Positions 12,005-63,207 of a stretch of DNA of 64,000 nucleotides are shown in pieces. The position numbers were made by a program, and so were the translations under genes. The notes under the pieces were generated by a model, which worked only from the letters and a program-made list of their open reading frames with translations, was not told the origin of the DNA and searched no databases. This DNA comes from Tetracentron sinense (taxonomy: Eukaryota > Streptophyta > Magnoliopsida > Trochodendrales > Trochodendraceae), in NCBI GenBank assembly GCA_015143295.1, contig CM026557.1, forward strand, positions 26,383,760 through 26,447,759. The letters are read 5' to 3'. Position 1 is the first letter of the stretch, and each line of letters starts with the position of its first letter.

Positions 12005-12530
12005 GATAGGATTGCTAACCGGGATTAGGCAGAACTAGCTGCAGTTAGGGTTGCTAACCACAATAAAGGGTGAGTGAGTTGTAGCCCAGTAGGCTAAGGT
12101 AGGGCCTAGTAGGCCAAGGTAAGTCCGGTAGACTTGGTTTTTAGGCCCGATAGGCCGTAAACAGAAGTTAACTATGATTAGGGTTACTAACCGCAGTTAA
12201 GGGGTGCTAACTGTGGTTAGGGTTGCTAACCAGGGTTAGGGAGAGGGCCAAAGTCAGGATTATGGTCCAAAGTTTATTTTAGGAATGTCCGTTTAATTTT
12301 CCTAGGTTTGTCGGGTTAAGGGGTGCTTAACCGCGGTTAAATGTTAACCAGAGTTGGATTTAACCGTGGTTAAGGGTTAGGTATAGTCCAAGGTGGGCCC
12401 AGGGGGCTAGGAAGGGCCTAAAGTGGCCTCCTACCAGGCCTGGGCCCCTACAAAAGCCCAAAATTAAAAACACCATTAATGTCGGTAATTGGATTACCGA
12501 CATGCTGAACAGGGTTTTTAACCATGGTTT
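12005..12530. repeat. Dispersed TAACCNNGGTTA motifs in Tat LTR
   Basis: Many copies of a symmetric motif of the form (T)AACCNNGGTT(A) occur, for example GCTAACCGCAGTTAAG, CTAACTGTGGTTAGG, TTAACCGCGGTTAA and AACCGTGGTTAAGG between 12165 and 12380. Two more lie near 13781-13816. A second motif, GTAGRCTAAGG, recurs at 11895-12150. Confidence 0.65.
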
Positions 12531-13303
12531 TGCCTCTGTTAACTAGGATTAGGCTATAATCCGAAGTAAGTGAGAGCATTGGAGTGTAGAGGGGACTCTC
12601 GGGGAGAGTTTAGGCCAAGTGGGGGGCTCAGAGGATGCCTGGAGTGGGCTCCACAAGGTTGCAAAAGTGCTGTACCTGAAACAGCAAACTGGCGGTAGTT
12701 GGATTACCGACTTATTGAAACCAAGCAAAACACAGAACGTCGGGAAAGGATTCACCGACATTCTGGAAACAGGTTTTTTTTGGGAATGGCGGTACTGAGA
12801 GTACTACCATTCTGGGTATTTCTGAAAACCGGATCTGTAGCTCCTGGGGCTGTGCACAGAGATTACCAGGGGTTCTCTCATGATGTGAGGGACCCCCGAA
12901 AGGTCTGTGGAGGTCTATCATACCTTGAAGAAATGCTATACCCGTAGGGAGTTCATTACACCTATGGATAAGGTGAATGAACACCCCTGTATTGGGTTTG
13001 GAATTGAAAAACAAATCAATATAGTAATAAAAGGGTCCCCTGGAAATGACCAGGGGCTCACATGATGATTGGGACAAAAAGAAAAACGGGTAGGGGAAGT
13101 CCCTACCCTATGCTCTGTTTTCGTCGGATGAAGTGGAGCCTGCTACAGTGGTGGTGATCTGTAGTGGCTGAGGACTTGAGGTAGGTCCGAGGTAAGCCTT
13201 AGGATGAAGACCAAGGTGTAGAAGAATCTGAGGCAATGGATTTTGGAACAAGGATTCTTCTTTTTAAATTCAGCCCATCCTATGAACTGTGGTGGGGGTT
13301 GGG

Positions 13304-13310
13304 TTTTATA
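13304..13310 (-). promoter_or_regulatory. TATA box of Tat LTR
   Basis: TATAAAA on the minus strand, within CCCTATAAAACCC, would place transcription start near 13275. U3 would then be about 13311-13841. Confidence 0.6.
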
Positions 13311-13460
13311 GGGAAGCTCCTAAGGGACCTAAAATAGATTTAGAAGAAGGGAGAGGAGGTGGTTGGACCCTCTGGAGGTCGACTAAGGGCTGAGAAGGGA
13401 GAGCCCAAGGTGGGGGTTGAGTGTGCAGGGCGTATGCAGGCCTGAAACTTGGAACTTGCA

Positions 13461-13581
13461 GTTGTCGGTAGAAGTTCTACCGACAACAGGAAAACAGGCT
13501 AATATTAAAATGTCGGTAGAACTTCTACCGACAACAGTAAAACAGGGCAAATGTAGAATGTCGGTAGAAGGTCTACCGGCA
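13461..13581 (-). promoter_or_regulatory. U3 palindrome cluster (TCGGTAGAA/TTCTACCGA)
   Basis: Three near-perfect inverted repeats lie in a row: 13461-13487 (13 bp arms, 1 bp spacer), 13511-13533 (11 bp arms, 1 bp spacer) and 13559-13581 (10 bp arms, one mismatch). All share the TGTCGGTAGAA half-site. Related shorter ones lie on the other side of the TATA box at 12481-12501 (9 bp arms), 12692-12711 and 12739-12759. Confidence 0.8.
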
Positions 13582-13841
13582 TTCTGGATTTTAAATGAAA
13601 TGGGCCTGGGCCTTGCACACTCGGGTATAGGGGGTTGTCCTAAGGCATTTTTGGGCCTTGTGGGCTTTGATTAAAGGGTCAGGCCCTAAGGGCCATGGGT
13701 TCTAGGGGGTCAAGCCCTAATGGCTCTTGGACTAGGGTTTTGACTAGGATTATGTAGGTTGTGAGGGATTTGGCAGGAGGGATAACCACAGTTAAAAGAT
13801 TTAACCATGGTTAGATGGGGTGTAAAAATTGGGTACTTACA

Positions 13842-14749
13842 AACAACAAAAAATTGGGTCGACCCAAAGGGACCATTATGTCGACCGAACTGTCCATTTG
13901 GGTCGATGAAATCCAAGCTTGGTCAACCGACTCTATTTTAGATGTTTCTAAATCCGATATTTTACCTTCTAAATTAGTTTTGGCTTCTCTAATTAATAGA
14001 ACCTTGCTAGTCCATGAATGAGGAATTGTGGAGAGTGTATTGAGCTAACTCTAGAGTTCTCAGAAACTCTGGATTTAGTTTCTCTCTTTCCCCTTTATTA
14101 GTTTCTCTTCTATCCTAGAGTTTGCAAGTCATTGTTTCATTCTTGCTTGTTTCGATTTTCCCATTGATAGGAATCCATCTAGGATTTAATTTAATCAACC
14201 ATCAACCCGTTCTTGGAAGAACAAACTATCCGAAGTGTTTAGGAGCCTTACGAAGTAGATCGATCTGAGGAGTGTCATGGTTGTGTGATTTGGTCGGTGG
14301 AATCCGAAGCCATCATTGATGGAGATCGATCGTGGAGATCGTGGTTGTCGAGACACAAGAGAAGAATAGGCTACTGCAGTAGATTGCGAGTCTTGGGAGA
14401 TCGTGATTACTTATTGGCCGTGTAAGTCTAGCTGTGGATCGAAAAAAGTCGAGTCCTGTTTGGGTGAGGTTCTAGTCTATAAGTATCTGGTACTTTATCT
14501 TAGTGGATTCTCATTGCTGGACTAGGTCCAGTGGTTTTTCACAGAAGGGTTTCCACATAAAAATTACTTGTGTTGTGGTTTGCTTTTTTTTCTTATTCCG
14601 TACTTTAAGTTCATCATCCATTAATTAATAATTTGATTGCATGATCTTAAAAAGAGTAGATATATTTATAGGGAGACGTAACCATCTCCTTGAATTTATG
14701 AGTTCTCAACCTAAAAATTTTATTTTTGGGGTTCACCGAGTGTTTTTCA
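13842..14749 (+). repeat. 5' LTR remainder of copia element
   Basis: Aligns with 21346-22108 and ends TGTTTTTCA just before the primer site. Its upstream part lies beyond the Tat insertion, left of the window. It contains a perfect 14 bp palindrome TTGGGTCGACCCAA at 13854-13867, and related GTCGACC motifs follow. Confidence 0.9.
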
Positions 14750-14751
14750 AT

Positions 14752-14763
14752 TGGTATCAGAGC
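14752..14763 (+). promoter_or_regulatory. Primer-binding site, initiator tRNA-Met
   Basis: TGGTATCAGAGC is the exact complement of the initiator tRNA-Met 3' end, two bases after the LTR end. This is the standard primer of plant copia elements. Confidence 0.95.
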
Positions 14764-14810
14764 GGGTTCACTAATTGTTTAGTGCGATCTTATTCTTATA
14801 TTCGGTGAAT

Positions 14811-16698
14811 ATGAATCTCCAAAGGGAGGAAGGATCCATCTCTTGTCCCTCATTATTTGATGGGAATAATTATGCCTATTGAAAAGCTCGTATGAGAGTC
14901 TTTCTAAGATCTTATGATGAGAGAGTATGGATCTCTGTTGAACAAGGTTGGACCCATCCAACAAAGACTATAGATAACCATACCATTTCTAAACCTTCTT
15001 CTGAATGGACCAATGTAGATCTTGAAAGTTGTAGATGGAATAATAAGGGTCTTAATGCAATCTTCAGTGCTATCACACCCGAAGAATTTCGGCGTATTCT
15101 AATTGTGACACTTCGAAGGAGGCATAAGACATTCTTAAACTTACCCATGAAGGGACACAATAGTCAAAATCTCCAAACTTTAATTGATTACCTATAAGTT
15201 TGAGAAGTTGATAATGAATGATAATGAAACTTTGGATTGTTTTTATGCTGATCTGAGTGACATTATCAATTCTAGGGGAAAGAATTCCACAGTTCAAAAT
15301 TGTTAGAAAAATTTTGAGATCTCTACCTGAGAGATATCGATTGATGGTTACCGCCATCGAAGAGAGCAAAAAGGTTGATGCTTTCAAAATTGAAGAGTTG
15401 GTTGGTTTTCTCCAAACCTATGAGTTAAATCTGAACTCATCTAAGAAACAAAAATCTATTACTTTGAAATCTGTCAAGGAATCCATAGATAGTTCAGATA
15501 ATGATTTTGAGGATAATGAAGAAGAGTTGACTTTATTTGCAAAGAAGTTCAGAAAATTTCTGAAATTTAATAAGAGATTTAATCCGATAGGAAAAAAATC
15601 TTTTGAGAAACCTAAGTCCAAGCACTTTGAAAACAAGAAACATCTTAAAAGTGCTAACAGTAAATCCCAAGGTAATCAATGCTATGAATGCCAATGCTAT
15701 GGCCATATTGCCGTTGAGTGCTCTAATAAGGGGATGACAGTGAATATGAATATGAGAAATCAGATAGTTCTTCTTGTGATGAGACTAGGGGTTATATGGC
15801 CTTCACTATATCCCTATCTGGGATTGAAGAATCTTCTTCAAATGTTGTGAGTGACCAACACCATAGTGATGGTGAGGATGATGAGAGTCAGATTGATTCA
15901 AATTTTGAGGGAGACCTTGAGGCAGCGTATGATGAGCTATTTTAGGAATGCCTAAAGCTGAAAAAAGTTCAGTTTTCCATGACCAAAAAGGTCAAATCTA
16001 TTAAAATGGAAAGAGATGCCTTAGACCAAGTGGCTTCAGGGTTAAAAGCTCTCGTGTTACAGCTTGAGGAAGAGAAGGCTTCCCTCCTTGTCAAGACTCA
16101 GCTTCTTGAATCTGATTTGCATGTTTATCTTTATGAAAAGATAAGTCTTGAAATCAAGTTGGTTGATCTTGAGCAAAATCAGAGATGCGGAGATATGAAG
16201 GGAGCTCCATCTACCTCGAACACTGAGCCTAGTGATAAGAGGCACCCTCTTGAAAATTGGAAAGACCCCTCTACTTAGAAATTCATTCCTACATGTCATA
16301 AATATGAAGAGAATGGTCATATTAGGCCTCGATGTCCTAAACTTCGAAGAATGCCCAATCATGGTTCTAGGAACCAACATAATTTTAATGAGAATCTTCA
16401 AATGAGAGTTGATATCCTAGTGGATATGTCTAAAAAGTTAAATGATAATATATTGAATATATATAATAACTCTAGACAGTGGCATGGTCGGGACACTCCT
16501 TATGCTAGATATAAAGGAGGAAACGAGAAGAACCAATATGCCCGCCATAATTCTAAGACTCAATCTTGGAATAGGAGGAATAAGAGGAAGATGCAAAAGG
16601 TTATACTTACCTCAACTGAAACGGTCAGAGACCAAAGGGTCAATCAAACTGCTAAAACTGTTTGGGTGAGAAAGGAAGACCTGAAGGGCTTCACTTAG
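14811..16698 (+). pseudogene. Copia gag with zinc knuckle and coiled coil
   Basis: Start chosen at the ATG at 14811, just after the leader. Parts in order: a capsid-like piece with MRVFLRSYDERVWISVEQGW and NNKGLNAIFSAITPEEFRRI; a second capsid piece with KILRSLPERYRLMVTAIEES; a lysine-rich stretch; a CCHC knuckle CYECQCYGHIAVEC (CX2CX4HX4C); acidic linker; a coiled coil beginning VKSIKMERDALDQVASGLKA; and a basic, asparagine-rich tail ending TVWVRKEDLKGF. The tail phrase is like the WVRK segment ahead of pol in related copia elements, but pol does not follow. Several breaks. Confidence 0.85.
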
Positions 16699-17568
16699 CC
16701 CTTGCCTGTCATAGCCTAGGGTGTGCTTTGTTTGTTATATCCAATCCTAGTGCTATGCTACTTGTGTATATTAGTAGTTTTTTATTTTTTTTGTTATCTA
16801 TTTTGGTTTGTTTTTCTGTTTTCTTTATTTTGAAAAATTCAAAAACATTGAAAAACTATAAAATCCAAAAATATTTTTGTCATGATGCCCTTGTTTAACT
16901 TACATGATCTGCATTCCTTGTGTGATCTCTATTTCTATACATTTCCAAGGTTGAACATGAGTTTGTTGTTGATTGAGGATGTAGAACCCCGGAACCGAGT
17001 TCACGAGGCTGTGAATAGTGCTATGAATAGTGTTGTGAATAGTATTTTTCTAGGCCAAAACCCTTAATGGGATGATGGCCTCATGTTTTAAAATGATAGG
17101 GGGTTTCAAATGAGACAAAATATGTGTGAAAAATGTTTCAGGGTGTTGGGATGAAAATGAAACAAGAGGATGCAATACCCGTAAGTGTTGCAAAGAGGGA
17201 TTTTTGAAAATTCCCTCAACTTGAGAGAACTCTCGTTTTCTCATCTGAAATTGGAATCGAGTGATTCTTTAGCCATTAGAAAGATATCGAGATCCTCTTC
17301 GAGGTTCATGTTTATCACATTTCCCAATTTTGAGTCTAAGCTCGGTGAAAAGTGGGTTTTAGGCAATTTGTCTACTGAAATTCCTGACCGGTAGCCTTTA
17401 GGGCCATTTTGGAATATGAAGATAGAATAATTAAGCTTTGTTCAAAACATGAAATTTGTTTCCCTTTAAATGTAGAATCCAAAGCAAGTTGAATCGTTAA
17501 AATCAGATCACCGAGTCAAAAGTTATGGTCGAAATACCACAGTGGGAAAAATGAAGGAATGAACAGTG

Positions 17569-17710
17569 AAGGATCTATCTAGGTTGGGGAGGATAGATCC
17601 TTCAATCCCATACACTAATGGATCTATCTATCCCCACGACCGATCGATCGAGGTTGGGCAGTGAGTGATTTTTTGAAGGATCTATCCGTGCTCATGACAG
17701 ATAGATCCTT
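17569..17710 (+). promoter_or_regulatory. U3 motif cluster GGATCTATCC/GGATAGATCC
   Basis: Symmetric motifs include AAGGATCTATC (17569), GGATAGATCCTTC (17591), GGATCTATCTATCC (17619), GACCGATCGATCGAGG (17638), AAGGATCTATCCGTG (17677) and GATAGATCCTT (17700). They lie 80-220 bp upstream of the TATA box. Confidence 0.75.
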
Positions 17711-17787: not shown

Positions 17788-17794
17788 TATATAA
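17788..17794 (+). promoter_or_regulatory. TATA box of solo LTR
   Basis: TATATAA within GGCCTATATAACCC, about 810 bases from the LTR start. Confidence 0.6.
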
Positions 17795-20921: not shown

Positions 20922-22108
20922 TGTTGGGTACTAGTTCCCTAGTTCAGTATTTCAGTACATTCCTTGCAATACCTTTATCTATTTGTATATTTCATACATG
21001 ATTCACTGGGTGTTTTATTTATAAGCATGTGTAGGTGCAAGGTTGCAGCAGACAGATCTTACTTGACAAGAGCTTCAGTGTCTTCACTTTAAGAATATTT
21101 GTCAATTGGTGTCATGTAATTGTGTTGGAGTCATGTACTGACCTAACTCTCTATTTGTAAAAGGCATATTTCATTGACCGTTGCTCCGATTTTGCTCCAT
21201 AATATATCAAATCGACCACATCGAAAAGATCTACAACTTTCGTGAAGAAAGTAGAGCAAAAATTGAGTTTTTGAAAGTCGGTCGATCGGACCATGATTGG
21301 GTCGGCCCAGTCCTTAAAAATTTTGTAGAGGAAAAATGGGCAGAGAAAAACAAAAAATTGGGTCTACCCAAAGGGACCATTCAGTCGACCAAACTGCCCA
21401 GTTAGGTCGACCCAATCCAAGCTTGGTTGACCCACTCTGTTTTAGATGTTTCTAAATCTTTTTTACCTTCTAAAAGTTAGTTTTGGCTTCTCTATTTAAT
21501 AGAACGTTGCTAGTCAGTGGAAGAGGACTTGTGAAGAGTGTATTGGGCTAACTCTAGAGTTCTCAGAAACTCTAGATTTATTTTCTCTCATTCCCCTTTA
21601 TTAGTTTCTCTTCCATCCTAGAGTTTGCAAGCCATTGTTTCATTCTTGCTTGCTTGGATTTTCCCATTATTAGGAATCCATCTAGGATTTATTTTTAATC
21701 AACCATCAACTCGTTCTGGAAAGAACTAATTGGTTGGAGTGTTCCAGAGCCTTTACGAGATCGTGATTACTTATTGGGCGTGTAGGACTAGCCGTGGATC
21801 AAGGAAGTCGAGTCCTATTTGGATGAGGTTCGAGTCTGTAAGTATCTGGTACTTTTTCTTAGTGGATTCTCAATACTAGACTAGGTTCTGTGGCTTTTCC
21901 CAGAAGAGTTTCCACGTAAAAATTGCTTGTGTTGTAGTTTGCTTGTTTACCTTATTCCACACTTTAAGTTCATCATCCCTTAATTAATAATTTGATTGCA
22001 TAATCTCAAAAAAGGTAGATAGACTTATAGGGAGACGTAACCATCCCCTTGAATTTGTGAGTTCTCAACCTAAAAATATTATTTTTGGGGTTCACCGAGT
22101 GTTTTTCA
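20922..22108 (+). repeat. 3' LTR of the gag-only copia element
   Basis: Begins TGTTGGGTACTAG after the polypurine tract and ends GAGTGTTTTTCA, identical in its last bases to the 5' LTR end at 14749. Length 1187 bp. GTCGACC-type motifs occur at 21278-21435 upstream of a TATA-like CTATTTAATAG at 21492. The two LTRs also differ in overall length. Confidence 0.93.
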
Positions 22109-22510
22109 TCATCGAACACATTATAATTGTCAAAATATAATACATTATGAGCCATTGTTATAACCTAGTAAGAGATATGCATTAGCATCCATAACAATCC
22201 ATAACACATCCAAAAATAGCATAACCACTATAGCAAACATGGTAACAACTATAACCAAAATATAGTAACATAACCAAACAAGCATACAAACATCTAAGAA
22301 GAACATAACCACTATAACAAATTAACTATAGTCATAAAACATAGATGTCTAGAATAACATAAGCAATGAAACGTAAAACATATATCGCAAATCCATAATA
22401 ACATAACCATGGTAGTAGATTAACCACATATCCATAGTCACAAAAAGACATCTCCAAACATAAATCTTAGGTTCTAAGTTACACTGCATAAACCATCAAT
22501 TCAGATTGAG
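22109..22510. other. AT-rich DNA, many CATAACCA-like repeats
   Basis: No gene is seen. Words such as CATAACCA, CATAACAAT and AACATAAC recur about every 20-30 bases, giving a weakly periodic sequence. Confidence 0.5.
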
Positions 22511-23989: not shown

Positions 23990-25200
23990 AATGATGCCCC
24001 ATGGATATGCATTATGCCAGTCCTTATGGGACTGACACGTGTCTGAGGTCTGTACCCACCGACAAACCTAAGTTAGTCCTTGTGGATTGACTTCTCAAGT
24101 CAGTCCGCAGACAAACTTTACAAGTCAAGTCTGCGTGCTAGCCAAAGCTAGCCCTCATTAGACCTAGTCCGCGGCCAAAATAGACGTGGACCTAATTAGT
24201 CCATGGGTTAAGCCCATGGTCCATCTTTTCTTTGGCTCGTGGACTGACCAAGGTCAACCCCCTTTTAATGGTCCGCGGACCAGGTAGGCTTTGGGCTTGG
24301 GTTAGCCCTTCCCCAACTGGCAGTCAATACTTGACTGCCACATAACAGGAAATCCCTAGAAAGGGGGATCCTGCTCTACCTTTTTGAGATTCAAAGATAA
24401 GGATCCCCTCCTTAATACAAATGAAAGGGTGCCATATAGCACCCCATTCAAAATAGGAGAGTAATCTCCTCTCCGTTTTGGAAGATAAGATTCTTTCCCC
24501 TTAAGGGGGAAAGATCTCATCCTCCCAGGTTTTTCCAAAAAGGGAAACTAATTTAGAATCCTCTAAAGAAGAGGACTCTTAGACGTCCCAGATTTCCCAA
24601 GATAAGGGAAACCAATTGTCAAAGAAAGATGTCCCTCTCCAAAGAGAGGAAAATCCTTTTTGACCTCCAAAAAATAGGAAGTCAAAAGAGAGACTAAAAA
24701 GGACTCTCCAAAGTATATAAAAAGGGGAGTTTCTCATAATAAACTCCAAGGAGAACACTACGAGATTCAGACTCAGAGAAAAAGATAGAAGAAAAGGAGA
24801 AAAACACTTCTCTTCTCTTGAAATCGGAATACACAACAGCCAAGAGCAAGCTCCAGAAGAAGATCTTCCCCTAACATGGAAAATAAAGGTGAACCCCTTT
24901 AAATGGCCACCTCTCTTCTTTTTCTCAATAAAAACACCTCAATGAGGTACCTTGTAACACCTACATGGGGATTAGGAAACTCCTCTTAATGAATAAAATA
25001 TAAATTTATTCAGATATGTTCTTCGTTTCAATTAAAGGTACTTCCCAAATTAGGAAGGTAATTAACAATCTGGGTTTACCTGGATCAGAAGGATAGTCCC
25101 CCACAAAAATAATACTCCACACAATAGTGGACGTAATCTGACTGCGAGGTTCGAGATGCCTATCATCAAAGAAGCCTGAAATTCGCGTGTACACACATCA
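23990..25200 (+). repeat. Probable solo LTR or LTR fragment
   Basis: The region has LTR architecture without clean ends. A cluster of TCCGCGGA-type motifs at 24095-24285 includes a perfect 12-mer GGTCCGCGGACC at 24270-24281. A TATA box TATATAAAA lies at 24714, a CA-rich leader follows, and there is a polyadenylation-like AATAAAA near 24925 and AATAAAAT near 24990. The right side ends near CGTGTACACACA (about 25196). I could not find a matching target duplication. No coding sequence. Confidence 0.45.
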
Positions 25201-42763: not shown

Positions 42764-42872
42764 CCCGCTTAAGTGAGCTCCAAGCCCGCTCAAGTGAACT
42801 CGACTAAAACTGTGTTTTTGAGTCCAGGGAGCAGCCCGCTCGAGCGAGACCCAAGCCCGCTCGAGCGAGATC
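42764..42872 (+). promoter_or_regulatory. U3 motif cluster CCGCTCGAGCGAG
   Basis: Four copies: CCCGCTTAAGTGAGCTC (42764), GCCCGCTCAAGTGAACTC (42784), GCCCGCTCGAGCGAGAC (42834) and GCCCGCTCGAGCGAGAT (42855). The core CGCTCGAGCG is a perfect palindrome. The cluster ends about 45 bp before the TATATATA box. Confidence 0.8.
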
Positions 42873-43584
42873 TCACATACACGTTTTTGTTTAAAGGTTT
42901 TTCACTAACCTAACACTATATATACCTAATTTTTGGGGTCCAAGGGTTCTAACACTTAGAGAATGACTTTTTGAGAGAAAAAGGAGGAAACCTAGGTTTC
43001 CAAAAGGAGGCTTTGTGGTAGATCAAGGAGGAGCTTGAATCCTCACTTCCCAAGCTTCCACAAGCTTGGATCTTCTTCCTTGAGCGTGGATCTCCATTTC
43101 CAAGCTCGAGTTCGTGCCCAACCATCCTCCCAAGCTAAGACTTAGTCTTTACAAAGTAAGTACACTCTTCTAGTTAACCTAGTGGTAACCTAGATCTTGA
43201 ACCTAAGTTTTCAAGCTTTTCAATGTTGAGATTTTGTACGATGGTTTCCAAATTCCAAACTAAGCATGTTTCCCAAAAATGTATGGATTATTAAGCATGA
43301 TTGAGATGTAATAGGCTAAGTAACCATGCTACATGCAATGTATGCCTAATGTATGGTACTTATGACCATGATTTCCATTTTTCATGTTTTTTAAGTATAC
43401 TATGATGTTTGGGAGCTTTTCTATGATTATAGAAATGCCTTAAATCAAATGATGCATTTACTTAAGTTTTTTTCATACCATTATGATGTTCACGATTTCA
43501 TATGCACAAGCATGTATGCATGACCAAGTTTTTAAATATAAGTATATGATAAACAAACAAGAACAGACAAGTGATTTATGAAAC

Positions 43585-43762
43585 GAATGATAAAGCCGAA
43601 CTTTGGGTCGGTCAAGGATAGGGCATATCCAAGGATATGCCATATTTGACTCTCAAGAAAATGAGACAAGCAAGAATGATAAAGCTGAACTTTGGGTCGG
43701 TCAAGGATAGGGCATATCCAAGGATATGTCATATCTGGCTCACAAGAAAATCAAGGATGTTA
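43585..43762 (+). repeat. 89 bp tandem duplication in LTR copy a
   Basis: The unit GAATGATAAAGCCGAACTTT... occurs at 43585-43673 and again from 43674. A shorter direct repeat (CGCTGAAGGGTATTTACATA) follows at about 43780 and 43829. The same unit, also duplicated, is present in the LTR at 60796-63207 (61735-61890, reverse strand). Confidence 0.85.
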
Positions 43763-44751: not shown

Positions 44752-44907
44752 AACCGGTCGACCAGTGCCCTAGACCGGTCGATCGTTGCACTACCGCTCG
44801 ACTGCTTGACTTGACCGGTCGACCAGTGCTCACACTAAATTGTATGGGGTTCTTTTCCAGAACACCCCAAATCAACCGGTCGACCGGTGGGCATGACCGA
44901 TTGACCC
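44752..44907 (+). promoter_or_regulatory. U3 motif cluster ACCGGTCGACC
   Basis: Copies at 44752 (AACCGGTCGACCAGTGCCC), 44773 (GACCGGTCGATCG), 44792 (diverged), 44812 (TGACCGGTCGACCAGTGC), 44873 (CAACCGGTCGACCGGTGGGC) and 44895 (diverged). The cluster ends about 65 bp before the TATA-like TACAAATA. Confidence 0.8.
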
Positions 44908-46098
44908 CTCCTTATTTTTCTTTGTATGAGATTTTCTTAAGGGTGTATGGGTCTTTGGCCAACCCCTTAGCCTACAAATACCCATTTTCGTGGGCTTAAG
45001 GATTACCACACCCTAAGAGAGTTTGAGAGAGAAATTTTGGGAGAGAAAGAAGAGAGAAAAGCTAGGGTTTATGCCGGGATCAAACTTAAAGCTTATTTCT
45101 TACTTCCGAAGTTCGGACCTTGCTTCCACAACTTTTCCAAAGCGCTTCAATCAAAGAAAATTGATCTTAGAAGGTAGATACACTCTACTATCTACCCTTG
45201 TTGCAAATTCTTTGATAAAAGAATGATGAAATGACATGTTTTTGATGAAAATAGGCTAAGTAACCTAGGTGTGATTTACTACCTCTATGAAATGAAATTC
45301 CATGAGATGTTTCGAGATTTCCAAGCTTTCTGAGTCTCTCATGATGCACTTATATCTCGCATGATTGATGTTTTCTCATAAGTATAGGTATCCAGAAAGT
45401 TCATAAGTTCACATGCTCATAAGAACAAACTCATAAGCTCGCAAGCTCAAAAGCATTGATAAACCCCAAACGTTGGGTTGGTCAAAGGTAGGGCATATCC
45501 AAGGATATGTCATACCTGACTCAAAGTAATCTCATAAGACAGTTGATAATGCTAAACGGAGGGTTGGTCAAGGATGATGGCAGCCCTATTCAATTTACCT
45601 TCAATGAAGGGTGTTTACATACTCGGCTCATAAGTTGCTAAGGGTGTTATCGTCTTGCTCATAAGTTCATAAACTCGTACAAAATCTTATAAGCTCATAC
45701 AGAATCTCATAAGCTCATAAGTCTCATAAGCAAAGATCTCATAAGTACTCATACAATCTCATAAGTGTGATTCTCATAAACAAAGACCTCATAAGAACTG
45801 CGATTCTCACAAGAACTCATAAGCTCATACGTTCGGTTTCTCATGCGACTCATACGGTTTTGATTTCAACATAAGCTCATAAGATAGTTTTGGATAACTA
45901 TGCACGTTTTACGATGTTTCAAAATATAATTTTCACTCTACGCTATAAAATTTTGATAAACTGTATAGATGTTATGGTTTTATAACATTATTAGCTAGTA
46001 GCTTGTATATGCTGAGTATTTCATGCTCAGTCGAATTGTTATCTTCAGCAGGTCCATTCAACACATGTGCTCCTAGACCATGGGTTGAGGAGAAGTAC

Positions 46099-47428
46099 TG
46101 AAAAATCACTCGGTGAACCCCAAATAAAATATTCGAGTTGAGAACTCACAAACCCAAGGAGGGATGACTAGCTTTCCCTATAATTCTTTCTACCATTTTT
46201 AAGATTTAATAATTAAATTATTAACAAATGGAAAATAATAATCAAGTGCGGAAAAGGAAAACAAGCAAACCACAACACAAGGTTTTTTACGTGAAAACCC
46301 TTCCGGGAAAAACCACGGGACCTACTCCAGCAAAGAGATATCACTAAGACAAAGTCAACAAGAACTTACAAGACTCGAACTTGACTCATTCGGACTCGAC
46401 ACTACGATCTTTCAGTTCTTAGTCCTCTATGCCTCGAAAAGTCATTACGTACCCGCAAGTCCCGTGATCAACCGCAGTCGCTCGTACTTCTCTTAGATCT
46501 CCACAACAACCACGATCCTTCTCGGATCGATCTCCTTCTACGAAGGCTCCGGATCACAAACACCGGCCAAAGACACACACGTGTCGGGATTGTCAAATTA
46601 ATTTTCTAACAATCTCTAGAGAGATCTTAAAACCATGAAGATCACACAATGCAAGAGCTAATAATAGAAAAGTTATTCTTGCATTCTCTAGAGAGGTTGT
46701 GAGAGGAGGGATCAACTATAATCAATGAAGAATAAAAGAAACCCTAGGAGAGAGTTCTCCAGCCTCTACTCTCACAAACTAATAAGATCTCCACGAATTA
46801 GGTCAATAGAATTCGTATTTATAGATTCCAAAGAGATTGCATGTGAATAGAACTCTTATTTAGCAAGGATGGATCTATCCATGGTGTGGATGGATCTATC
46901 CATTGCCCACGGATCTATCCGTCATCACCAAGGATAGATCCTTCAAAGTCTATTCATGTAAGCACCGATCTATCCAAGTTATCACCGATCTATCTATCAC
47001 ACCAAGGATAGATCTATCTATATGTTGATCGATCTATCCGTCATTACCAAGGATAGATCCTTCAAAACATGAGTCTCTGGAAAAAATCCTCATACATAAT
47101 TTTTCACCACCGATCTATCCAACATGGAGAAGGATAGATCCTTCATAGCCAATTTCGAATATTTCGAATGACTTGAATACAATAACTTTTTTATGGAATT
47201 ATACTAACCTCCTAGGTTGATAAAAAGGTGTTCTATGTCAAAAACCAACCTAGGTAATGGGTCACTAAGTCACTTACCTTCCTAGATCCGGAGGTGATAC
47301 TTGATGTAGATTTCTTCTCTTTTCTTCGGCTTTTTGAAGCTTTACCAAGTATGATAAGTTGACTTAAAAATGACTCCACTTAGACTTACGTTTTGATACA
47401 TAATTAGCCAAGATATTTTGGACTTACA
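46099..47428 (-). mobile_element. Ty1/copia-type solo LTR
   Basis: Perfect 5 bp target duplication AGTAC (46094-46098 and 47429-47433). The minus strand starts TGTAAGTCC and ends GGGGTTCACCGAGTGATTTT then TCA, almost the same as the 3' end of the gag-only copia LTRs (22091-22108), so it belongs to a related copia lineage. It is inserted in chromovirus LTR copy b. TATA on the minus strand at 46816-46823. Confidence 0.92.
46867..47144 (-). promoter_or_regulatory. U3 motif cluster GGATCTATCC/GGATAGATCC in copia LTR
   Basis: At least eight copies: GGATCTATCC at 46871, about 46892 and 46911; AAGGATAGATCCTTC at about 46930, 47049 and 47130; CCGATCTATC at 46985 and 47110; GATCGATCTATCCG at 47027. 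It lies 45-320 bp upstream of the TATA box in LTR sense. The motif is the same as in the gypsy solo LTR at 17569-17710. Confidence 0.82.
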
Positions 47429-47886
47429 AGTACGATGAGGAGGAGCCTACGGTGAATCTTGCTCCTAAGGAGAGGGCCTTTGATAGGTGGCCTTATCCAG
47501 GTTACTACTGAGTGAGGTGAGTGAGAGATTTGTACATATATTTTGTAAATGGGCATGTCCACTTAGTACGTTGAGTAAGTTGTCTTTTGTAATCACTTGG
47601 AATATGGTATGTATAGAAGAAATTTTCAATTTACACTTCCGCTATGTTTGCCTTGTGTATTTTATACAGGATGGTTTGAAATGATATAATAGTCACACAC
47701 AAAGTCTCTCATAACTCCTAGATAGGATTTTGGGTCGCAACACGGAGGTTCAGAATTTTGAGAGAGATTCTGATTCGAGGTGGAGGTGTTTCCCGGATGT
47801 GGGTGATGCGGTGTTCTATCTTGGAGGTTTGCTTGGTGAATAGCAAATCAGTTATCTTGTTTAATGGTGATATCGCGGAATTCTCG

Positions 47887-50090: not shown

Positions 50091-50381
50091 CTGGGATTGT
50101 CTTGGCGAAGCCAAAAAGGGCTCTTCGAGGTTCCATACATTGTGCGGCAGCTGGCAGAAAAATGGGGAGAAGTCATTTATTTTCTCCCCATGATTTTTGA
50201 CTTCTCCCCATTTGATATCTCTGCCCCTTATTCTCACACACTTATCACCACATGTCCATTTGTGTGTGGAGAAGTCAAAATCATGGACCCCATGATTTTG
50301 ACTTCTCCACCACATGTCACCTATTCTATGAAACCCCGAAATAAGCCCTTTCTGGCTTCGCCAGAGGCAACCTAAGGCCTT
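50091..50381. mobile_element. Foldback MITE, TGGCGAAGCCA arms
   Basis: Left arm TTGTCTTGGCGAAGCCAAAA then AGGGCTCTTCGAGGTT; the right arm read in reverse is TTGCCTCTGGCGAAGCCAGA then AAGGGCTTATTTCGGGGTT. That is roughly 45 bp of inverted repeat. Inside lie two further inverted pairs built from GAGAAGTCA and TGACTTCTCC. The superfamily is not clear, and a target duplication could not be fixed. Frames on both strands here are by-products of the symmetry. Confidence 0.7.
50266..50310. repeat. Perfect hairpin, 21 bp arms
   Basis: GTGGAGAAGTCAAAATCATG plus G (50266-50286) is followed by a 3-base loop (ACC) and its exact complement (50290-50310). It lies inside the foldback MITE. Confidence 0.95.
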
Positions 50382-51471: not shown

Positions 51472-52086
51472 TAATAGTAATAATAATTTCTCTTTAAAGG
51501 TCATATTTTATTTGGATTGATTAATCCAAAACAAATTTATTGGAAATACTGTGAGCAATTAAAATATAATATATATAAAATAATTCCTAAATATGTTGAT
51601 CAATTAAAATAGAGTATATATAAAATAATTTCTAAATATGTTGAGCAGTATAACAATTCTCTCATGCAAATCAAATCTGTAAATAATGGTTAGTAGAATC
51701 AGAAACTAATCAAAATCTTCGATTGAGACACGTGTTGAACATGTTTTTAAGGTGAAATTTGCCTCTTAGTACTGAACAACAATGATGCTTACAGGATCAA
51801 CGATGGATACCTCCAAGATTCAAGAATTTATTCTAAAGAAAGAAAGTACTCTATGTGCCTTGGTCACGGCAAACTCTGCTCCGTACAAAGCTTTGAAAGA
51901 GAAAAAAAAAATACGTGTGCAAAATTAAACAATTTATGTGTTTCGGTTTTGTCTAAGATAGCTTAGAATATATAGAGAAGAAAATAAGGGGACCGGTATG
52001 AAGGGTTTCCAGTCCGGCTGAACAATTTCCCCCATTGGAAGGCTTTGGGCTACCCCTTTGGCCCCCTTGTGCACAAGGGCTAAGTC

Positions 52087-52586
52087 TAGGGGTGTCAACG
52101 AGCCGAGCTGGGCACTGCTCGAGCTTTGCTCGTTGGAAATTTACAGAGGCTCAAGCTCGGCTCGGCTCATCCACAGATCATTGAACTCGAGCTCGACTTG
52201 ATAATTTATGTTCAAATACATTGATAAACACTAAATTCAATTAAAAAAAAATTAAAATGACATATTTTTCTTTGGAATATCATGTGACTCACGTGAAAGT
52301 CTGAGTTAAAACTTAAACAAAAATAATTATGTTAATGTATACTATATAAATTTTACCCAAAAAGGGTATACTAAATATATAATAATATAAATTTAATTTT
52401 TAAAGGGTATTATTATTATAAAATTAATCGAGCGGAGCCAAGCTGAGCCACCTATTGTTTAGGCTTGGCTCGTTTATTTTTCGAGTTCACTTTTGAGGCT
52501 CGGCTCGGCTCAACGAGCCCAAAGTAAAAGCTCAAGCTCGTTTTTTTTCGAGTCTCGCGAGCTGGCTCGGCTCATTGACACCCCTA
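52087..52586. mobile_element. hAT-type MITE, TAGGGGTGTCAA ends
   Basis: Terminal inverted repeats TAGGGGTGTCAAC and TTGACACCCCTA, flanked by GCTAAGTC (52079-52086) and GCTAAGCC (52587-52594), an 8 bp target duplication with one difference. Arms rich in GGCTCGGCTC/GAGCCGAGC surround an AT-rich centre. 500 bp, non-coding. Confidence 0.92.
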
Positions 52587-57612: not shown

Positions 57613-57993
57613 GTGACAAAACAGGGTCAATTGTACAGTTTTGGATCATTCAATCAACCTAATTTTTTTTCATATGTTTCAAACGGGACTCACCTTAACA
57701 TCCAACGGTTAGATATCCAAAAAGATATGCCACATGTGGAGATATCTTAGAAGGGCCACCCATTAGAACTTCTCATAAGTCGGCGCTACAGGAACTTTTC
57801 GAGCTTGATTCGAGTTTGAAAATCAAGGCTTGAAGCTTGATTAGAACATAATGGACAAGCTCGACCCGATTTTGGCTAGGCTTGAGTTTGATGCATTAAA
57901 AAATAATAATAATAATTATTTTAATACATATATATTATAATATTCAAGTCGAGATGGCTTGAATACACCTCTCTCTATATATATATATACATA

Positions 57994-58557
57994 TAGGGGT
58001 GTACACAAGCCGGGTTAGCTCGATTGCTCGGCTCGGTTTGGCTCAATCAAGCCGAGCTCGAACTCGAATATGTGGCTCGATAGGGCCAAGCTGAGCTGAG
58101 TTTTCAAGCTTGAAATATATTCAAGCTGAGCACTAGTCAAGGCCTGTTTGATTTGGCTCGGCTCGGCTCGGCTCGGCTCGGCTTGAAGCTCGAATCAATT
58201 GAGGCTCGAGCTCAACTCAACTTGAATATTATATAAAAATAAAAAAATATTATTTATATATATATCATTCTTACATACATATAGAAATAATATATAATAT
58301 TATTATTTTAATTAAATTTTTTTTAAAAAATAAATCAAGCTGAGCTCAAGCCAAGCAAAGCTCGATTCACGCTTGAATCAATTCGAGCTCGAGCCAAGTT
58401 TTTTGAATTCGAGCCAAGCTAATTTGAGCCAATTTTCGAGCACCATTTCAAGCCGAGCCGAGCTGAGCCGAGCTCGAGCTTGAGCCTAGATTAAACCCCT
58501 TTCAAGCCGATCCGATCAAGGCCAAGCTCGGCTCAACCCAGGTCGAATACACCACTA
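57994..58557. mobile_element. hAT-type MITE, TAGGGGTGTACAC ends
   Basis: A perfect 8 bp target duplication TATACATA (57986-57993 and 58558-58565). Ends TAGGGGTGTACAC and (reverse) TAGTGGTGTATTC. Arms carry GGCTCGGCTCGG runs (58155-58185) and GAGCCGAGCTGAGCCGAGC (58450-58475) around an AT-rich centre. 564 bp, non-coding. Confidence 0.92.
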
Positions 58558-58565
58558 TATACATA

Positions 58566-58925
58566 CATTCATCGTACCATGATTTTATGAATAAAAATAA
58601 TATAAGAAATGGTACAATTCGAGATGGAGGTATCCAAAAGATAAGTTTAATTTCAAAGCTCCTTCTCTAAACTATTAGAACCAACATTTATTATACATAT
58701 AAAATAAATAAATAAAACTGTCCTACACCTTACTCAAATGGAGATGACTAGGATAAACATCATTAACAAGTAGCCTAACAAATAGAGGTTCAAATTCGGG
58801 CCTCAAAAACTTCTTGTTAATGGGCTGGGCTTAGACTGACTCTATTTTGGATAGTAGTTTATGGATCATTTCGGAGAACGAGAGGGCTGGCAAGTTAACC
58901 TGGATTAAAATCTAACCTAAGATAA
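58566..58925. other. Intergenic, nothing recognised
   Basis: AT-rich DNA between the hAT MITE and the Tat-like solo LTR; no gene seen. Confidence 0.5.
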
Positions 58926-58930
58926 ATCTA

Positions 58931-60453
58931 TGAGGCTAAAGAATGGACACAGGATCATGGGCATTCAAATGGGCAGAGTTATCGTTCGAACGCCCATGGT
59001 TCTAAAGATGAACATAACCTTTTTTTTTGGGGGGAGTTGAGGGATTTTTTGTGGGATCTAGTTGGAATCTAACGACCTAAGGTGAGGTCAACCTGGATGG
59101 TGAGATTGGCCAAAAGATATGAAGAAAGGGGGTCTTGACTATTGCCAGACCCAGAAATGAAATGTAAAGACAAAGCGAAAATGAAAATGACAAGCAATGT
59201 AGAAAGGAAAATGGAAGACTTCTCCCTTTTGAAAGGGGTGTCTCTATACTATTGGATTTGATGTAGAGAGAATGCTTGAAGGAGATGCCTTCTAAAAGCC
59301 CCAAAAAATGGACTAGGAACAAAAGGGAAATCATAAACTATATAGAAAAGAAAAAATGAGTGCTCATCCTCCCCTTTCAATAGGGTCCCTTTACACCATT
59401 AGATTGGTGTAGAGAGACCCACTAAAGGAAAAAGATGGACTCTAAAAAATGGTTCTAGAAATGGACTAAAACCCAAAAGGAAGCAACAAGTAAATGCAAA
59501 GAGAAATACAATAGAAAAGAAACAAGTATAAATAAAGAGAAAAGAGGAGGAGGATGGAGAGGGTGAGGTGAAAACCTACCCTCCTCCTTTGCTCTTCATG
59601 CTCCAAGCTACTCTGAGATGAGGGTTGCCTCCAATGAGGGGTGGCCTCAAAGTTCTTGCACTGAGATTAGGTTTGGATTGGAAGGGAATAAGGTTGATGG
59701 GTTATCTTTTAGAATTTCTAGGGTTTTTGTTTGAAGGAGGAAGAGAGTGAATTAGGATTTTCTCTAAGGATTTGGGCTTGGAGAAGAGAGTGAATTAGAG
59801 TTTGTACTAAGGAAATTTGAATTAGCATTTTAGCTTGAATTGGGGGGTATTTATAGGTTTCCTAAGGGTTAGGATTATTTGGTAGTTATTATGAAAGTTT
59901 AGGGTGATGCGAGAAAGAGAAAGGATGGTAAAAATTTGAGTTTAAACCCTAAAAACACGAAATCTGCAAGAGGTGTTCTAATGGAGTAAATGTGCATTTG
60001 AACGCCTAGCTCTCAGGAAACCACAACATTATAGGTGGCCAAACAAGGGGTTTTGCGTTTGAATAGGCTATTGAGTGTTGGAACACCCCTAGAGGGTTTT
60101 GGGAATTCAAATGCTCCTAGGTTATTTTGCCTAAAAAGGCAGATTTTTGCATGGGTTTTGGTTGAGCTTAGGTTTGTGGCTATTAAGGAGGGGCATTTGG
60201 TGGATAATGGGTTTTGCCTATTCGATTCACCTAAAGATTTTTGGTTTGGGGGCCTACCCTCTTGCACTCCCAGTGAGCTAACCAAGTAGCTTGACCCGTG
60301 ACTATCTAATCATAGCTTAAACTTATTAGGTCAGGTGCAAATAGGAGTTGGGCTCTGGGCCTAAATGAAGGTTGAAGATGTTGGGCTTTGGGTGATGCCT
60401 TGGAGTTTGAAGAGGAAAGAGAAGAATAGAGGGTGCAAAATGGGGTGCTTACA
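58931..60453 (-). mobile_element. Tat-like solo LTR
   Basis: A perfect 5 bp target duplication ATCTA (58926-58930 and 60454-60458). The minus strand starts TGTAAGCACCCCATTTTGCA, like the Tat LTR start TGTAAGTACCCAATTTTTAC at 13841, and ends TTAGCCTCA. TATA on the minus strand at 59848-59855. A 140 bp-scale duplication (AGGGTCCCTTTACACCATTA versus AGGGGTGTCTCTATACTATT) lies at 59230-59460. Frames here are not coding. Confidence 0.9.
59992..60117 (-). promoter_or_regulatory. U3 motif cluster, GTTTGAAC-type
   Basis: GTGCATTTGAACGCC (59992), GCGTTTGAATAGGC (60055), GTGTTGGAACACCCC (60075) and GGAATTCAAATGCTCC (60102). Related copies downstream of the TATA box lie at 58960-59000 (GGGCATTCAAATGGGC, GTTCGAACGCCC). 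Confidence 0.65.
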
Positions 60454-60455
60454 AT

Positions 60456-60701
60456 CTAATTGATGAAAAATTTGTCGGGATTGTTGCCAAGGCAAGTATT
60501 CAATGGTTGGAGGACTATTATCAATAGAATGAATGGAGGGGGAATGTAATCATCTATAAACCAAAATAGATCGTGAAAGATCAAGATGAAGTGGATTTGA
60601 ATCCTCCATAGTAAGTAGTTCGATCCATCCAATTTGATTGAAACTGTAAGTCCATATTTTGGTGTTCGCTTATTCTGGTGTCTAGTAGTGTCTTGTGTCA
60701 T
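60456..60701 (-). pseudogene. Ty1/copia gag fragment
   Basis: Minus frame with VSIKLDGSNYLLWRIQIHFI then FWFIDDYIPPP, matching the copia gag opening (LDGSNYLLWRxQ...L.G..L..FIDG..PxP). Only about 80 residues remain between the Tat-like solo LTR and the chromovirus. No LTR or primer site for it was identified. Fossil fragment. Confidence 0.75.
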
Positions 60702-60795
60702 TGCCTACAAGCATCTAAGAAAGTGAAGATGAAGACCGAAGAAGATCAATTGAAGACATTTTGAACATCACTTTCGTTTCACTTATAGGAAGGTA

Positions 60796-63207
60796 TGTCG
60801 CGCCCCAAAATACCCCCTAGGGGTTAAGGGATACTTTAGAGGTGACTATTCATACCTGCCAACTCATCCTGTAATGAACAAGGCTAACATATAATAAACA
60901 GAGTGTCGAAGCTAAACATGAGTGCGGAAGCGTGAACCAACTTTTTCTTTTCTTCCATAACTCAAACCAGTATTCCAAGTTTATACACTTAACATATCAA
61001 GTCAAAGGAGGACATGCCTACTTATCAAAATATCAAAATACAAAAAGAACTATTGAACCCCCTATAGTCAACAGTAATCCAAATATGGCCACACGTCGCG
61101 ATCTCTATCCTCCTGCGATTGCATCGGGATAGGAGGTTCTCTCTCCTCTACATACCCTTCCTCAACCCAAGGCTCAGGGTTGAGGTTGTCTACAATACCT
61201 GCCGACATAAAAGTATGGTTGAGTATGAAATACTCAACGAGTACAAGCTACTAGCTAACCATAGCAATAACAATCACACAAAAGCAACAAGGTATAATTC
61301 ATCATTTCAATCCAAAGCAATAATAGCAGCATATGACAAATAGCAGTAAAGTAAAGCAATGTAATAATTTTGACATGCTTGAATGAATGCGAAAACTCTG
61401 GCAAAACTTGTACTTTAAACATCATGTCTTATTCTTGAAAATAGCTTGTCGTGTTTCTTTCAAAACTTGTTTGTCATGTTTGAAAACTTGTTTCTTGTTT
61501 TGGTCTTGTTCGAAAGAATCACGCATGTATCTTGTCTTGCTTGGAATCACTTGTCTTGCTTGTTCTTGTTATGTTCTTGACATGTTCTTGACTTGACTTG
61601 CTTCTATACTTGTGAGGCAGAGGTTAGTGCCCTTGAAGCGACTTGTGAGCCGGGAATATAAATTCCCTTCAACGAATTATATATATATAGAAAAGGGTAC
61701 ACCAACCTCCTTGTCTTATTTTCTTGTGAGTCAGGTATGACATATCTTGAGATATGCCCTACCCTTGACTGGCCCGATGTCCGGCTTTATCATTCATGCT
61801 TGTTTTCCTTGTGAGCCAAGTATGACATATCCTAGGGATATGCCCTACCCTTGACCGGCCCGATGTCCGGCTTTATCATTCGTTTCGTGAATCACAATCC
61901 TTGTTCTTGTTTGTTTCTTTCAAATACTTGTACTTTAAAAACATCGATTCATGCATGCATGTGTGGGTGTGTGTAGCACTTGTGGTGATTATGATAACAT
62001 GTGCAACAAAAGGGATTATGCATAGCATTTTCATTCTTACTATAATCATGCAAGGATGCATACAACATAACAAGCATTTGGTCAACTTATCCTTTTTGGG
62101 AAAAATTACATAATCCTACTTCCATTTTCTTCATTAAATCCATTTAACCCTTGTTTAGGCATTTTATCAAACACATGGCGTGCAACATTTCTTAGTCGTT
62201 TCATTTCCTCTTTTCAGTGCATATATTTCATCAAAAACATCAAGGTACGTTCAATATTTGTAGAATGCCCTTCCACCATTTTGCATTACACACATCAGAC
62301 CACATCTATACGGCATCCAATTGCCTCAACCACCATCCAATCCATACATCCACACCTCTTATTTATCTTGTTTATATTTAGGGAAAATGATACATTTCAA
62401 GGAAAGAAGAACACAAGATCAAGAATCATGATTTTTTTTTTAGGAAGAACCTAGGTTATTGCTAAGTGAGTTAGTAGGGTGTACTAACCTTGAGGATCAA
62501 GCTTGATCTTGAAGAAAACCCTTGGATTAGAAGTCCAATTGGTAGAGGAGAACCCTTGCATGAAGAATGCTTGATTGGGGAAGATCAAACTATCTTCTTC
62601 TTCAATCCAAACCCTTCTTGGAATCCCCAAATCTCTCCTCTTCTTTCTCTCCTTCCCTCTCTCTTAAGTTTAGAGTTAACCAAAAAACCCCCAAATGCAT
62701 CTCTATTTATAGGCCAAGGGTTGAAACCCTTATTTTCGTGTATTTTTAAAAACAGATTTACGCGATAACGATCGATCGTCCACACTCCAGTAAGCTTTTC
62801 TCAGATTTCTGTCTCCAGACGATCGATCGTCGATCTTGGGAGATCGATTGTCCAGCTTCCCGAAAGCCATCTAATTTCTGGGTTTAGGATGATCGATTGT
62901 CGAGTTTTGGGTGATCGATCGTCCAAGTTCTAGTAGATTGCCTAGGTTTCTGGGCCATGTGGCGATTGATTGTCGCCATGTGGTGATCGATCGTCAAACC
63001 CAGTTTTTTCCTCTCTTTTCACCTGTAGACCCCTTGGGGTATTTCCAACCTTTTCTTCAACATATTTAGGGTCTTAAACCCCCTTGCTCACGCTGCCCAT
63101 GCGTTACCGACCTCCAATTCCTCATAATTTATTAATCTAACTACGTGAAAGGCCAATTGACTATGAAAGCACTGTTCATTAGGTACGAAAAGTTCCAGGG
63201 GGCTACA
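60796..63207 (-). repeat. 3' LTR of the chromovirus
   Basis: Minus strand TGTAGCCCCCTGGAACTTTT at 63207 to CCCCTAGGGGGTATTTTGGG then GCGCGACA at 60796; 2412 bp. It contains a duplicated unit at 61735-61890 homologous to the one in LTR copy a. TATA on the minus strand TATAAATA at 62704-62711. Confidence 0.92.
62767..62998 (-). promoter_or_regulatory. U3 motif cluster CGATCGATCGTC
   Basis: Copies include ACGATCGATCGTCCACAC (62768), ACGATCGATCGTCGATC (62819), AGATCGATTGTCCAGC (62841), TGATCGATTGTCGAG (62889), TGATCGATCGTCCAAG (62911), GCGATTGATTGTCGCC (62962) and TGATCGATCGTCAAAC (62984). They lie about 55-290 bp upstream of the TATA box in LTR sense. Confidence 0.82.

Follow-up and report, generated by a model that had tools for sequence, protein, structure and literature searches.

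Palindromic motif clusters upstream of the TATA box in Ty1/copia and Ty3/gypsy retrotransposons of Tetracentron sinense

A stretch of 64,000 nt from the genome of Tetracentron sinense (CM026557.1, 26383760-26447759; genome size 1.16 Gb), referred to below as the window, is filled with nested long terminal repeat (LTR) retrotransposons, and at least eight of their LTRs carry a cluster of short motifs with two-fold symmetry in the unique 3' (U3) region upstream of the TATA box. The clusters occur in more than one superfamily (Ty1/copia and Ty3/gypsy), and the motif differs by family while its symmetry is kept. In six Sirevirus and chromovirus-type families the palindromes tend to stand in pairs 20-22 bp apart, and one 115-bp block is homologous between the two superfamilies. 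We consider it fairly probable that these clusters are modular U3 enhancers bound by dimeric host factors, in which the palindromic word can be replaced while the frame is kept. Here we describe the anatomy, position, spacing and cross-superfamily homology of the clusters in this single genome.

Palindrome clusters and their position before TATA

Nine pairs of cluster and TATA box, listed in an earlier note on the window, were checked together with family relatives drawn from the same genome; the denominator throughout is the LTRs of the window plus relatives of their own families, not a random LTR sample. The nine regions were:

13463..13581, minus strand: Tat U3 cluster, three 23-bp inverted repeats TGTCGGTAG-N5-CTACCGACA, the first with one change
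21278..21435, plus strand: copia U3 cluster, GGTCGACC-type palindromes centred at about 21284, 21304, 21365, 21387, 21409 and 21429
46867..47144, minus strand: copia solo U3 cluster, eleven GGATCTATCC/GGATAGATCC sites, TATA at 46816
17569..17710, plus strand: gypsy solo U3 cluster, GGATCTATCC/GGATAGATCC sites centred at about 17576, 17596, 17625, 17683 and 17704, TATA at 17788
42764..42872, plus strand: gypsy a U3 cluster, CGCTCGAGCG-type sites centred at about 42771, 42792, 42842 and 42863, TATA at 42917
44752..44907, plus strand: gypsy b U3 cluster, GGTCGACC-type sites centred at about 44760, 44781, 44800, 44821, 44882 and 44903, TATA-like word at 44973
62767..62998, minus strand: gypsy c U3 cluster, GACGATCGATCGTC-type sites centred at about 62988, 62967, 62916, 62894, 62845, 62824 and 62773, TATA at 62704
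24095..24285, plus strand: far case, symmetric words resembling GGTCCGCGGACC, 430-620 bp before the TATA at 24714
59992..60117, minus strand: Tat-like solo, a weak region

Symmetry was scored as the number of 10-mers matching the reverse complement of a 10-mer in the same region with at most one mismatch, and was compared with 1000 dinucleotide-preserving shuffles per region. Inverted repeats were enriched, and eight of the nine regions exceeded at least 999 of the 1000 shuffles. None of the shuffles reached the observed number of inverted 10-mer pairs in the Tat (53, shuffled mean 0.55), copia (19, mean 1.27), gypsy solo (33, mean 1.88), copia solo (120, mean 5.65), gypsy b (38, mean 1.15) and gypsy c (40, mean 2.68) regions, and a single one did so in gypsy a (11, mean 0.74) and in the far case (12, mean 1.21). 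The exception was the Tat-like solo (5 pairs, mean 0.95), where 38 of 1000 shuffles reached the score and which is not counted as a case. When all 1277 windows of 200 bp were scanned without LTR labels, six of the nine regions were in the top 90 and three were not (the far case, gypsy a and the Tat-like solo). The same top list also held many AT-rich windows, a second array in the Tat LTR and several windows that are not LTRs (50101-50350, 52001-52250 and 57801-58550).

A TATA-like word was present at all nine positions, poor in copia (TATTTAATA) and gypsy b (TACAAATA). Across the nine LTRs, some with approximate ends, windows centred between -350 and -50 from TATA had a median z of 3.8, with 45% above 5 (n = 47), compared to a median of 0.5 and 4% above 5 in LTR windows elsewhere (n = 213); any p-value for position is only nominal, because the windows overlap. 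The motifs are thus not spread evenly along the LTRs, and the placement 40-320 bp before TATA proposed earlier holds for the bulk of the signal, but not for the highest z of copia (-36), gypsy a (+3), the far case (-524) and the Tat-like solo (+348). Smaller peaks were located downstream of TATA in Tat (+1013), gypsy a (+803), gypsy c (+197 and +1047) and copia solo (+136). The CpG ratio was slightly higher upstream (median 0.65 vs 0.43). One LTR-like pair with a clear TATA, 37882-38298/48006-48422, carries no palindrome cluster; its copies are 86% identical, with a copia-like primer binding site (PBS) beside one of them, and enclose gypsy a, gypsy b and copia solo.

Families, words and constraint

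The earlier note had spoken of four or more lineages. More than one was confirmed and three could be assigned: the nine LTRs comprise two Sirevirus, four chromovirus-type (three with domain evidence in family members) and one Tat LTR, a far case without lineage, and the Tat-like solo that fails the shuffle comparison. The LTRs and LTR remainders that bear on these assignments were:

11507..13841, minus strand: Tat 5' LTR; its partner LTR (C7:26381336-26383114), which is 94% identical over 1660 bp, lies just outside the left edge of the window
13842-14749: remainder of the copia 5' LTR, followed by the PBS TATCAGAGC at 14755
21156..22109, plus strand: copia 3' LTR, its start deleted (about 370 bp present in relatives L005 and L008 and absent here)
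46099..47430, minus strand: copia solo LTR, a solo LTR with GTACT on both flanks (by eye)

In the copia solo family the PBS TATCAGAGC directly follows the 5' LTR, exactly in six of 20 loci (L033, L036, L041, L043, L046, L047) and with one change in L040, while the polypurine tract (PPT) AGGGGGAG plus AT stands before the TG of the 3' LTR, again exactly in six of 20 (L030, L031, L034, L039, L042, L048) and with one change in L038; L073 has four copies of the octamer. The copia element contains two linker copies (20744 and 20912) and none at the 3' LTR junction, where its window copy has lost the beginning of the LTR. A copia-type gag (Retrotran_gag_2) was detected in L073 of the copia solo family (E 2.4e-23) and in the window at 15257-15850 (E 3e-7). 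By the published PBS signal, for copia solo also by the PPT, and by copia-type gag, copia and copia solo are assigned to the Sireviruses. The copia solo copies scored were 95-97% identical to the window copy, and the family looks young. It may also be non-autonomous, because the 3.8-kb internal region of L073 holds a 534-aa gag open reading frame (ORF) and no other Pfam match among the four sense ORFs scanned.

Members of three gypsy families carry, beside the LTR, domains by which gypsy solo, a and c are assigned to the Ty3/gypsy chromoviruses. In the gypsy solo family (L094) these were Integrase_H2C2 (E 2e-7), rve (E 1.5e-4, below cutoff), SH3_Tf2-1 (E 4e-25) and Chromo (E 0.02, below cutoff); in the gypsy a family (L095) SH3_Tf2-1 (E 2e-26) and Chromo (E 0.001, below cutoff); and in the gypsy c family (L050:957-1394) SH3_Tf2-1 (E 5e-25) and Chromo (E 1e-5, just above its cutoff), with an RVP_2 protease in L072. 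The ORF preceding the chromodomain ORF of the latter family (L050:267-953) was read as integrase by eye and had no Pfam match. Gypsy b is placed with them by LTR homology only, which extends over 48 bp with gypsy solo (83%) and 122 bp with gypsy a (76%). Gypsy a (43585-43751) and gypsy c (61715-61881) also have in common a tandem duplication of 86-89 bp that lies 700-1100 bp downstream of TATA and contains the inverted words GATATGCC/GGCATATC.

The element of the LTR at 11507..13841 is assigned to the Tat lineage from its domain order, read on the minus strand between 2263 and 4923: RVT_1, RT_RNaseH, a second RNase H (RVT_3, E 6e-4, below cutoff, and 1.5e-6, above) and a weak rve (E 3e-4, below cutoff). 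Its repeats lie 48 bp apart and 160-280 bp upstream of TATA (13304), and the pattern TGTCGGTAG-N5-CTACCGACA has 792 exact sites genome-wide, against none for the reversed control. A heat-shock-element reading of the site (GAA-N-TTC) was rejected for the wrong gap. CTACCGACA also resembles the drought element TACCGACAT, and TGTCGG resembles auxin elements; we take these similarities as leads only. By homology, the Tat element interrupts the Sirevirus 5' LTR within its palindrome cluster, at 13841/13842. The second palindromic array of the Tat LTR, of TTAACCGCGGTTAA type, occupies 12000-12560 (downstream of TATA) and 13780-13815 (near the LTR start); about 560 bp covering part of it (12197-11636) are missing from the partner LTR.

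The word is TGTCGGTAG-N5-CTACCGACA in Tat, of GGTCGACC type in copia and gypsy b, GGATCTATCC/GGATAGATCC in gypsy solo and copia solo, of CGCTCGAGCG type in gypsy a and GACGATCGATCGTC in gypsy c, so that the GGTCGACC and GGATCTATCC types are each found in both Ty1/copia and Ty3/gypsy. A CGG-CCG core is present in Tat (TGTCGG..CCGACA) and in some copia and gypsy b sites; the words of copia solo, gypsy a and gypsy c lack it. Per LTR, copia solo had 11 sites, gypsy c 7-8, copia 5-8, gypsy solo 5-6, gypsy a 3-5 and Tat 2-3.

Constraint on the palindromic words is indicated by comparison of copies, with motif columns defined from the window copy and scored in the remaining ones (L097, which repeats L096, was dropped). 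Transversion diversity was lower in motifs than in spacers in Tat (.083 vs.222), gypsy c (.029 vs.052), gypsy solo (.033 vs.073) and copia (.023 vs.098). Across 13 Tat copies, 74-86% identical to the window copy, the arms were largely kept (diversity 0-0.31, vs 0.55-0.64 at three of the five central bases; 40 repeat instances, including a poor one with 6 mismatches in L084), and units stood 47-49 bp apart in 25 of 26 gaps. Within eight gypsy c LTR copies, the sites of the repeated unit were 81-91% identical and its spacers 47-73%. Departures from the gypsy c word (209 in 20 copies) were C to T or G to A in 126 instances, as expected of methylated CpG decay, and T to C at one position, a recurrent variant, in 55. 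The far-case words are not conserved in relatives.

Spacing and sharing between superfamilies

In the six Sirevirus and chromovirus-type window copies, which use four different words, 20 of the 34 gaps between neighbouring sites measured 20-22 bp. Random placement over the same span (10-bp minimum, 5000 trials) gave a mean of 2.8 and a maximum of 10 such gaps; all six families had at least two of them, compared to at most three families at random. The six are not fully independent in this test, because two share a block. A word-free autocorrelation of dyads over the same stretches peaked at 21 bp (9 vs 0.3), followed by 61 bp (6 vs 0.3). Counting all copies, the 20-22 bp class made up 29 of 43 gaps in copia, 3/5 in gypsy b, 14/23 in gypsy a, 72/133 in gypsy c, 43/87 in gypsy solo and 120/200 in copia solo, and in 20 gypsy c copies 124 of 132 gaps were 21-22 or 49-50 bp. 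Strict 10.5-bp phasing over all gypsy c gaps was unsupported (R 0.55 at 10.5, larger at 9-10 and 12.5-14). The gypsy solo/copia solo half-units, searched as a module GAAGGATCTATCC-N-GGATAGATC with 8-14 bases allowed between them, gave 454 genome matches and none for the reversed control; among the matches listed (about 100 of the 454), 10 or 11 bases separated the half-units (GAAGGATCTATCC-N10/11-GGATAGATC).

The families had been described as unrelated, and this does not hold for all of them. The gypsy solo U3 matched the copia solo U3 in 20 of 20 copies, at best over 115 bp ungapped at 76% identity (E 4e-19), in a block that begins and ends at palindromic sites; the window copy of gypsy solo lacks about 25 bp of it. 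Other cross-lineage U3 pairs gave no match or one of 13-27 bp only; copia solo with gypsy b yielded the longest of these (E 4e-4, 17 of 20 copies). Sister families showed the opposite pattern. An 88-bp stretch just ahead of the cluster is 86% identical in gypsy solo and gypsy a, which do not have the cluster itself in common. No BLAST match was obtained between the copia and copia solo clusters, though the two are 73-77% alike downstream.

The long spacers were also compared with all palindromes masked, against sets of 100, 200, 2000 and 1000 shuffles. At most eight distinct spacers per family entered the 200-shuffle test; in the 2000-shuffle test L002 and L010 replaced the window copies of copia and gypsy solo, the latter of which has a deletion there; and the copy-by-copy copia test covered seven copies, L007 giving no spacer. 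The reference spacer in gypsy b was:

44828..44874, plus strand: gypsy b long spacer, with matches in the spacers of copia solo and of gypsy solo (TGTATGGGG..TTTTCCAGA)

The clearest pair was copia solo and gypsy b, whose words differ, with 0/100, 0/200 and 0/2000 shuffles reaching the observed match, and 0/1000 each for gypsy b against six of 20 copia solo copies. Gypsy b and gypsy solo gave 0/100, 6/200, and 5 and 2/2000. Copia matched gypsy solo at 22/100, 2/200, and 6 and 4/2000 (at most 11/1000 in five of seven copies) and gypsy b at 2/100, 25/200, and 48 and 25/2000 (at most 9/1000 in one of seven), and was uneven against copia solo: 88/100 (L007), 14/200 and 0/2000 (L002), at most 1/1000 in two of seven. 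The masked gypsy a spacer matched no other family in three shuffle tests, and that of gypsy c matched gypsy solo only, unevenly (0/100, 1/200, 55 and 42/2000). A common frame thus appears to hold two different words in three families, perhaps four, each word in both superfamilies; copia is counted as tentative, because its matches vary by copy and test, gypsy a stands outside the group and the place of gypsy c in it is doubtful.

Enhancer reading, alternatives and known systems

Under the reading we favour, each cluster would be an array of dyad-symmetric sites, about 50-300 bp upstream of TATA, for a dimeric host DNA-binding protein. Within a Sirevirus or chromovirus pair the two sites are separated by 20-22 bp, roughly two helical turns, and successive pairs mostly by 49-63 bp, so that bound dimers would sit on one face of the DNA. 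The arrays would grow through duplication of units, after which spacers drift while sites and distances stay; one palindromic word could be swapped for another, and a whole cassette could move between superfamilies, probably via template switching. Given the symmetry, the regular spacing, the free centres and spacers and the place before TATA, paired sites for a dimeric protein fit, and this protein would be host-derived, because a chromovirus and a Sirevirus, which encode different proteins, use one cassette. Binding, host origin of the protein, enhancer activity and template switching are what we infer from the sequences. Among the explanations offered earlier, sites for dimeric host factors fit best, and a fast-changing motif fits the replacement of words between sister families. 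A tentative and rather doubtful extension is that the Sireviruses and chromoviruses of this genome exchange one enhancer frame, in which symmetric pairs at 20-22 bp flank a TGTATGGG-T-rich-CCAGAGAG spacer, and that all its words are replaced together; the words would track different host factors, in a silencing arms race or for a tissue niche.

Several observations weigh against the enhancer reading. Single-family p-values for constraint were weak where the difference was not reversed, between 0.01 and 0.22 (gypsy c 0.011, copia 0.102, Tat 0.136, gypsy solo 0.170, gypsy a 0.220), and were 0.863 in copia solo and 0.857 in the far case. Motif transversions equalled those of the seven spacer columns in gypsy a, were slightly above the spacers in copia solo, where the copies are very similar, and exceeded the flanks in the far case, where there are no spacer columns. 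The two Tat half-sites are unequally kept (28 changes left vs 13 right, p 0.03; 39 instances, excluding that of L084), and the Tat unit spacing of 48 bp is outside the 20-22 bp pairing, a class that was itself picked after inspecting the data. Finally, two clusters fold strongly: taking the lowest 110-nt RNA energy upstream of TATA and the cutoff of -40 from PMC10760457, Tat reached -48.3 kcal/mol (z -9.8) and copia solo -45.2 (z -5.5).

These energies bear on the possibility that the clusters act as fold-back RNA. Element transcripts carry U3 at their 3' end, where hairpins could serve the element (packaging, 3' end) or yield host small interfering RNA (siRNA), and an excess of small RNAs at Sirevirus palindrome clusters is reported in PMC10760457, citing Bousios 2016. 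However, upstream of TATA the lowest energies of copia and of gypsy solo, a, b and c lie between -34.5 and -39.3, short of the cutoff, gypsy c folds best elsewhere (-39.5 at +1502), and the strong folds of the far case (-44.3 at -244, -46.9 at -394) lie largely outside its cluster. Most words are loop-less palindromes, and hairpins need no regular 21-bp pairing. In the Tat arms, 41 of 360 pairs were changed on one side and three on both, two of the three still being paired (shuffled 0.67, p 0.13), which is no clear compensation. We therefore regard fold-back RNA as an unlikely general explanation, though a hairpin-siRNA route is possible, mainly for Tat and copia solo. Both may apply, with an enhancer indispensable to the element and a hairpin exploitable by the host, along the lines proposed in PMC10760457.

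In VANDAL elements, anti-silencing proteins bind clustered motifs of the family that encodes them, and on this model each element here would encode the protein that binds its sites. Words do differ between sister families, and Retand/Tat elements are described as often having antisense ORFs with a TRP28 domain that may bind DNA (PMC11963269). One cassette is nevertheless common to a chromovirus and a Sirevirus, and in the copia solo member with the 3.8-kb internal region gag was the sole Pfam match (sense strand only), which leaves a self-encoded protein quite improbable. A functionless by-product of tandem duplication and CpG-rich low complexity would account for the tandem origin of the arrays and for the somewhat higher CpG ratio upstream. 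Duplication, however, yields direct repeats and not symmetry, dinucleotide-preserving shuffles fail to produce clusters, sites outlast spacers, and spacing agrees across families with different words; we give this explanation very little credence.

Repeated symmetric sites for host factors are familiar from U3 regions, for instance as clustered heat-shock elements in ONSEN-type LTRs and as the BII boxes of Tnt1; unlike ONSEN-type LTRs, the words here are not heat-shock elements. The cluster design is not new as an idea, because it was published for Sireviruses as the repeated motif (RM), a palindrome upstream of TATA whose word differs by element (Bousios et al. 2010, PMC2829016). As in the RM, many copies of a palindromic word occupy the upper half of the LTR, upstream of TATA, and the RM words of Vitis CGGTCGACCG and Tnd-1 ACAATCGATTGT given there resemble words found here. 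The copia and copia solo cases are new members of this known motif, for which the published criterion is at least eight copies per element, clustered upstream of TATA. That paper calls the RM Sirevirus-specific, absent from classic Ty1/copia and mostly built on a CGG-CCG core, with Ty3/gypsy apparently outside the comparison, and in its sections consulted pair spacing or sharing with gypsy is not mentioned. In contrast, the design described here also occurs in chromoviruses and Tat, and several words have no CGG-CCG core.

In the LTRs of Del chromoviruses, Cruz et al. (2014, PMC4029996) described a fast-changing CpG-rich 5' region and proposed it as a moving silencing target; these islands are reported there as absent in the eudicot Del elements of that study, and its text uses none of the terms 'repeat motif', 'direct repeat' or 'inverted repeat'. 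A maize LTR survey (Martin et al. 2023, PMC10760457) reported structured palindromic regions in Copia LTRs, suggesting a tug of war between cis-regulation and small-RNA targeting, and generally no obvious structure peak in Ty3/RLG elements. Unlike in that survey, gypsy families here do have palindrome clusters, yet the four chromovirus-type ones miss its folding cutoff. Beyond these precedents are the design in chromoviruses and Tat, the 20-22 bp pairing, the 115-bp cross-superfamily block and the matching masked spacers; in the portions consulted of the open-licence literature searched, neither palindrome arrays of chromovirus or Tat LTRs nor the 21-bp pairing nor a cross-superfamily block was found described.

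The clusters bear on the question why plant retrotransposons retain palindromes that expose them to small-RNA targeting. If distant superfamilies share a spacing frame or a cassette, the cluster would be a portable module of regulation that the host recognises, and its factor could be searched for directly, with one word, one spacing and many copies to work from. The result speaks against the motif as a peculiarity of Sireviruses and provides a natural series of word replacements within a constant frame.

The window holds other palindromic repeats. Those of GAGCTCGAGCT type at 52101-52200 and 57801-58550 stand beside a AGGGGTGTCAA-like end and are not LTRs; they look like subterminal repeats of hAT-like DNA transposons. 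At 50101-50350, inverted repeats around GGGGAGAAGTCA form a fold-back.

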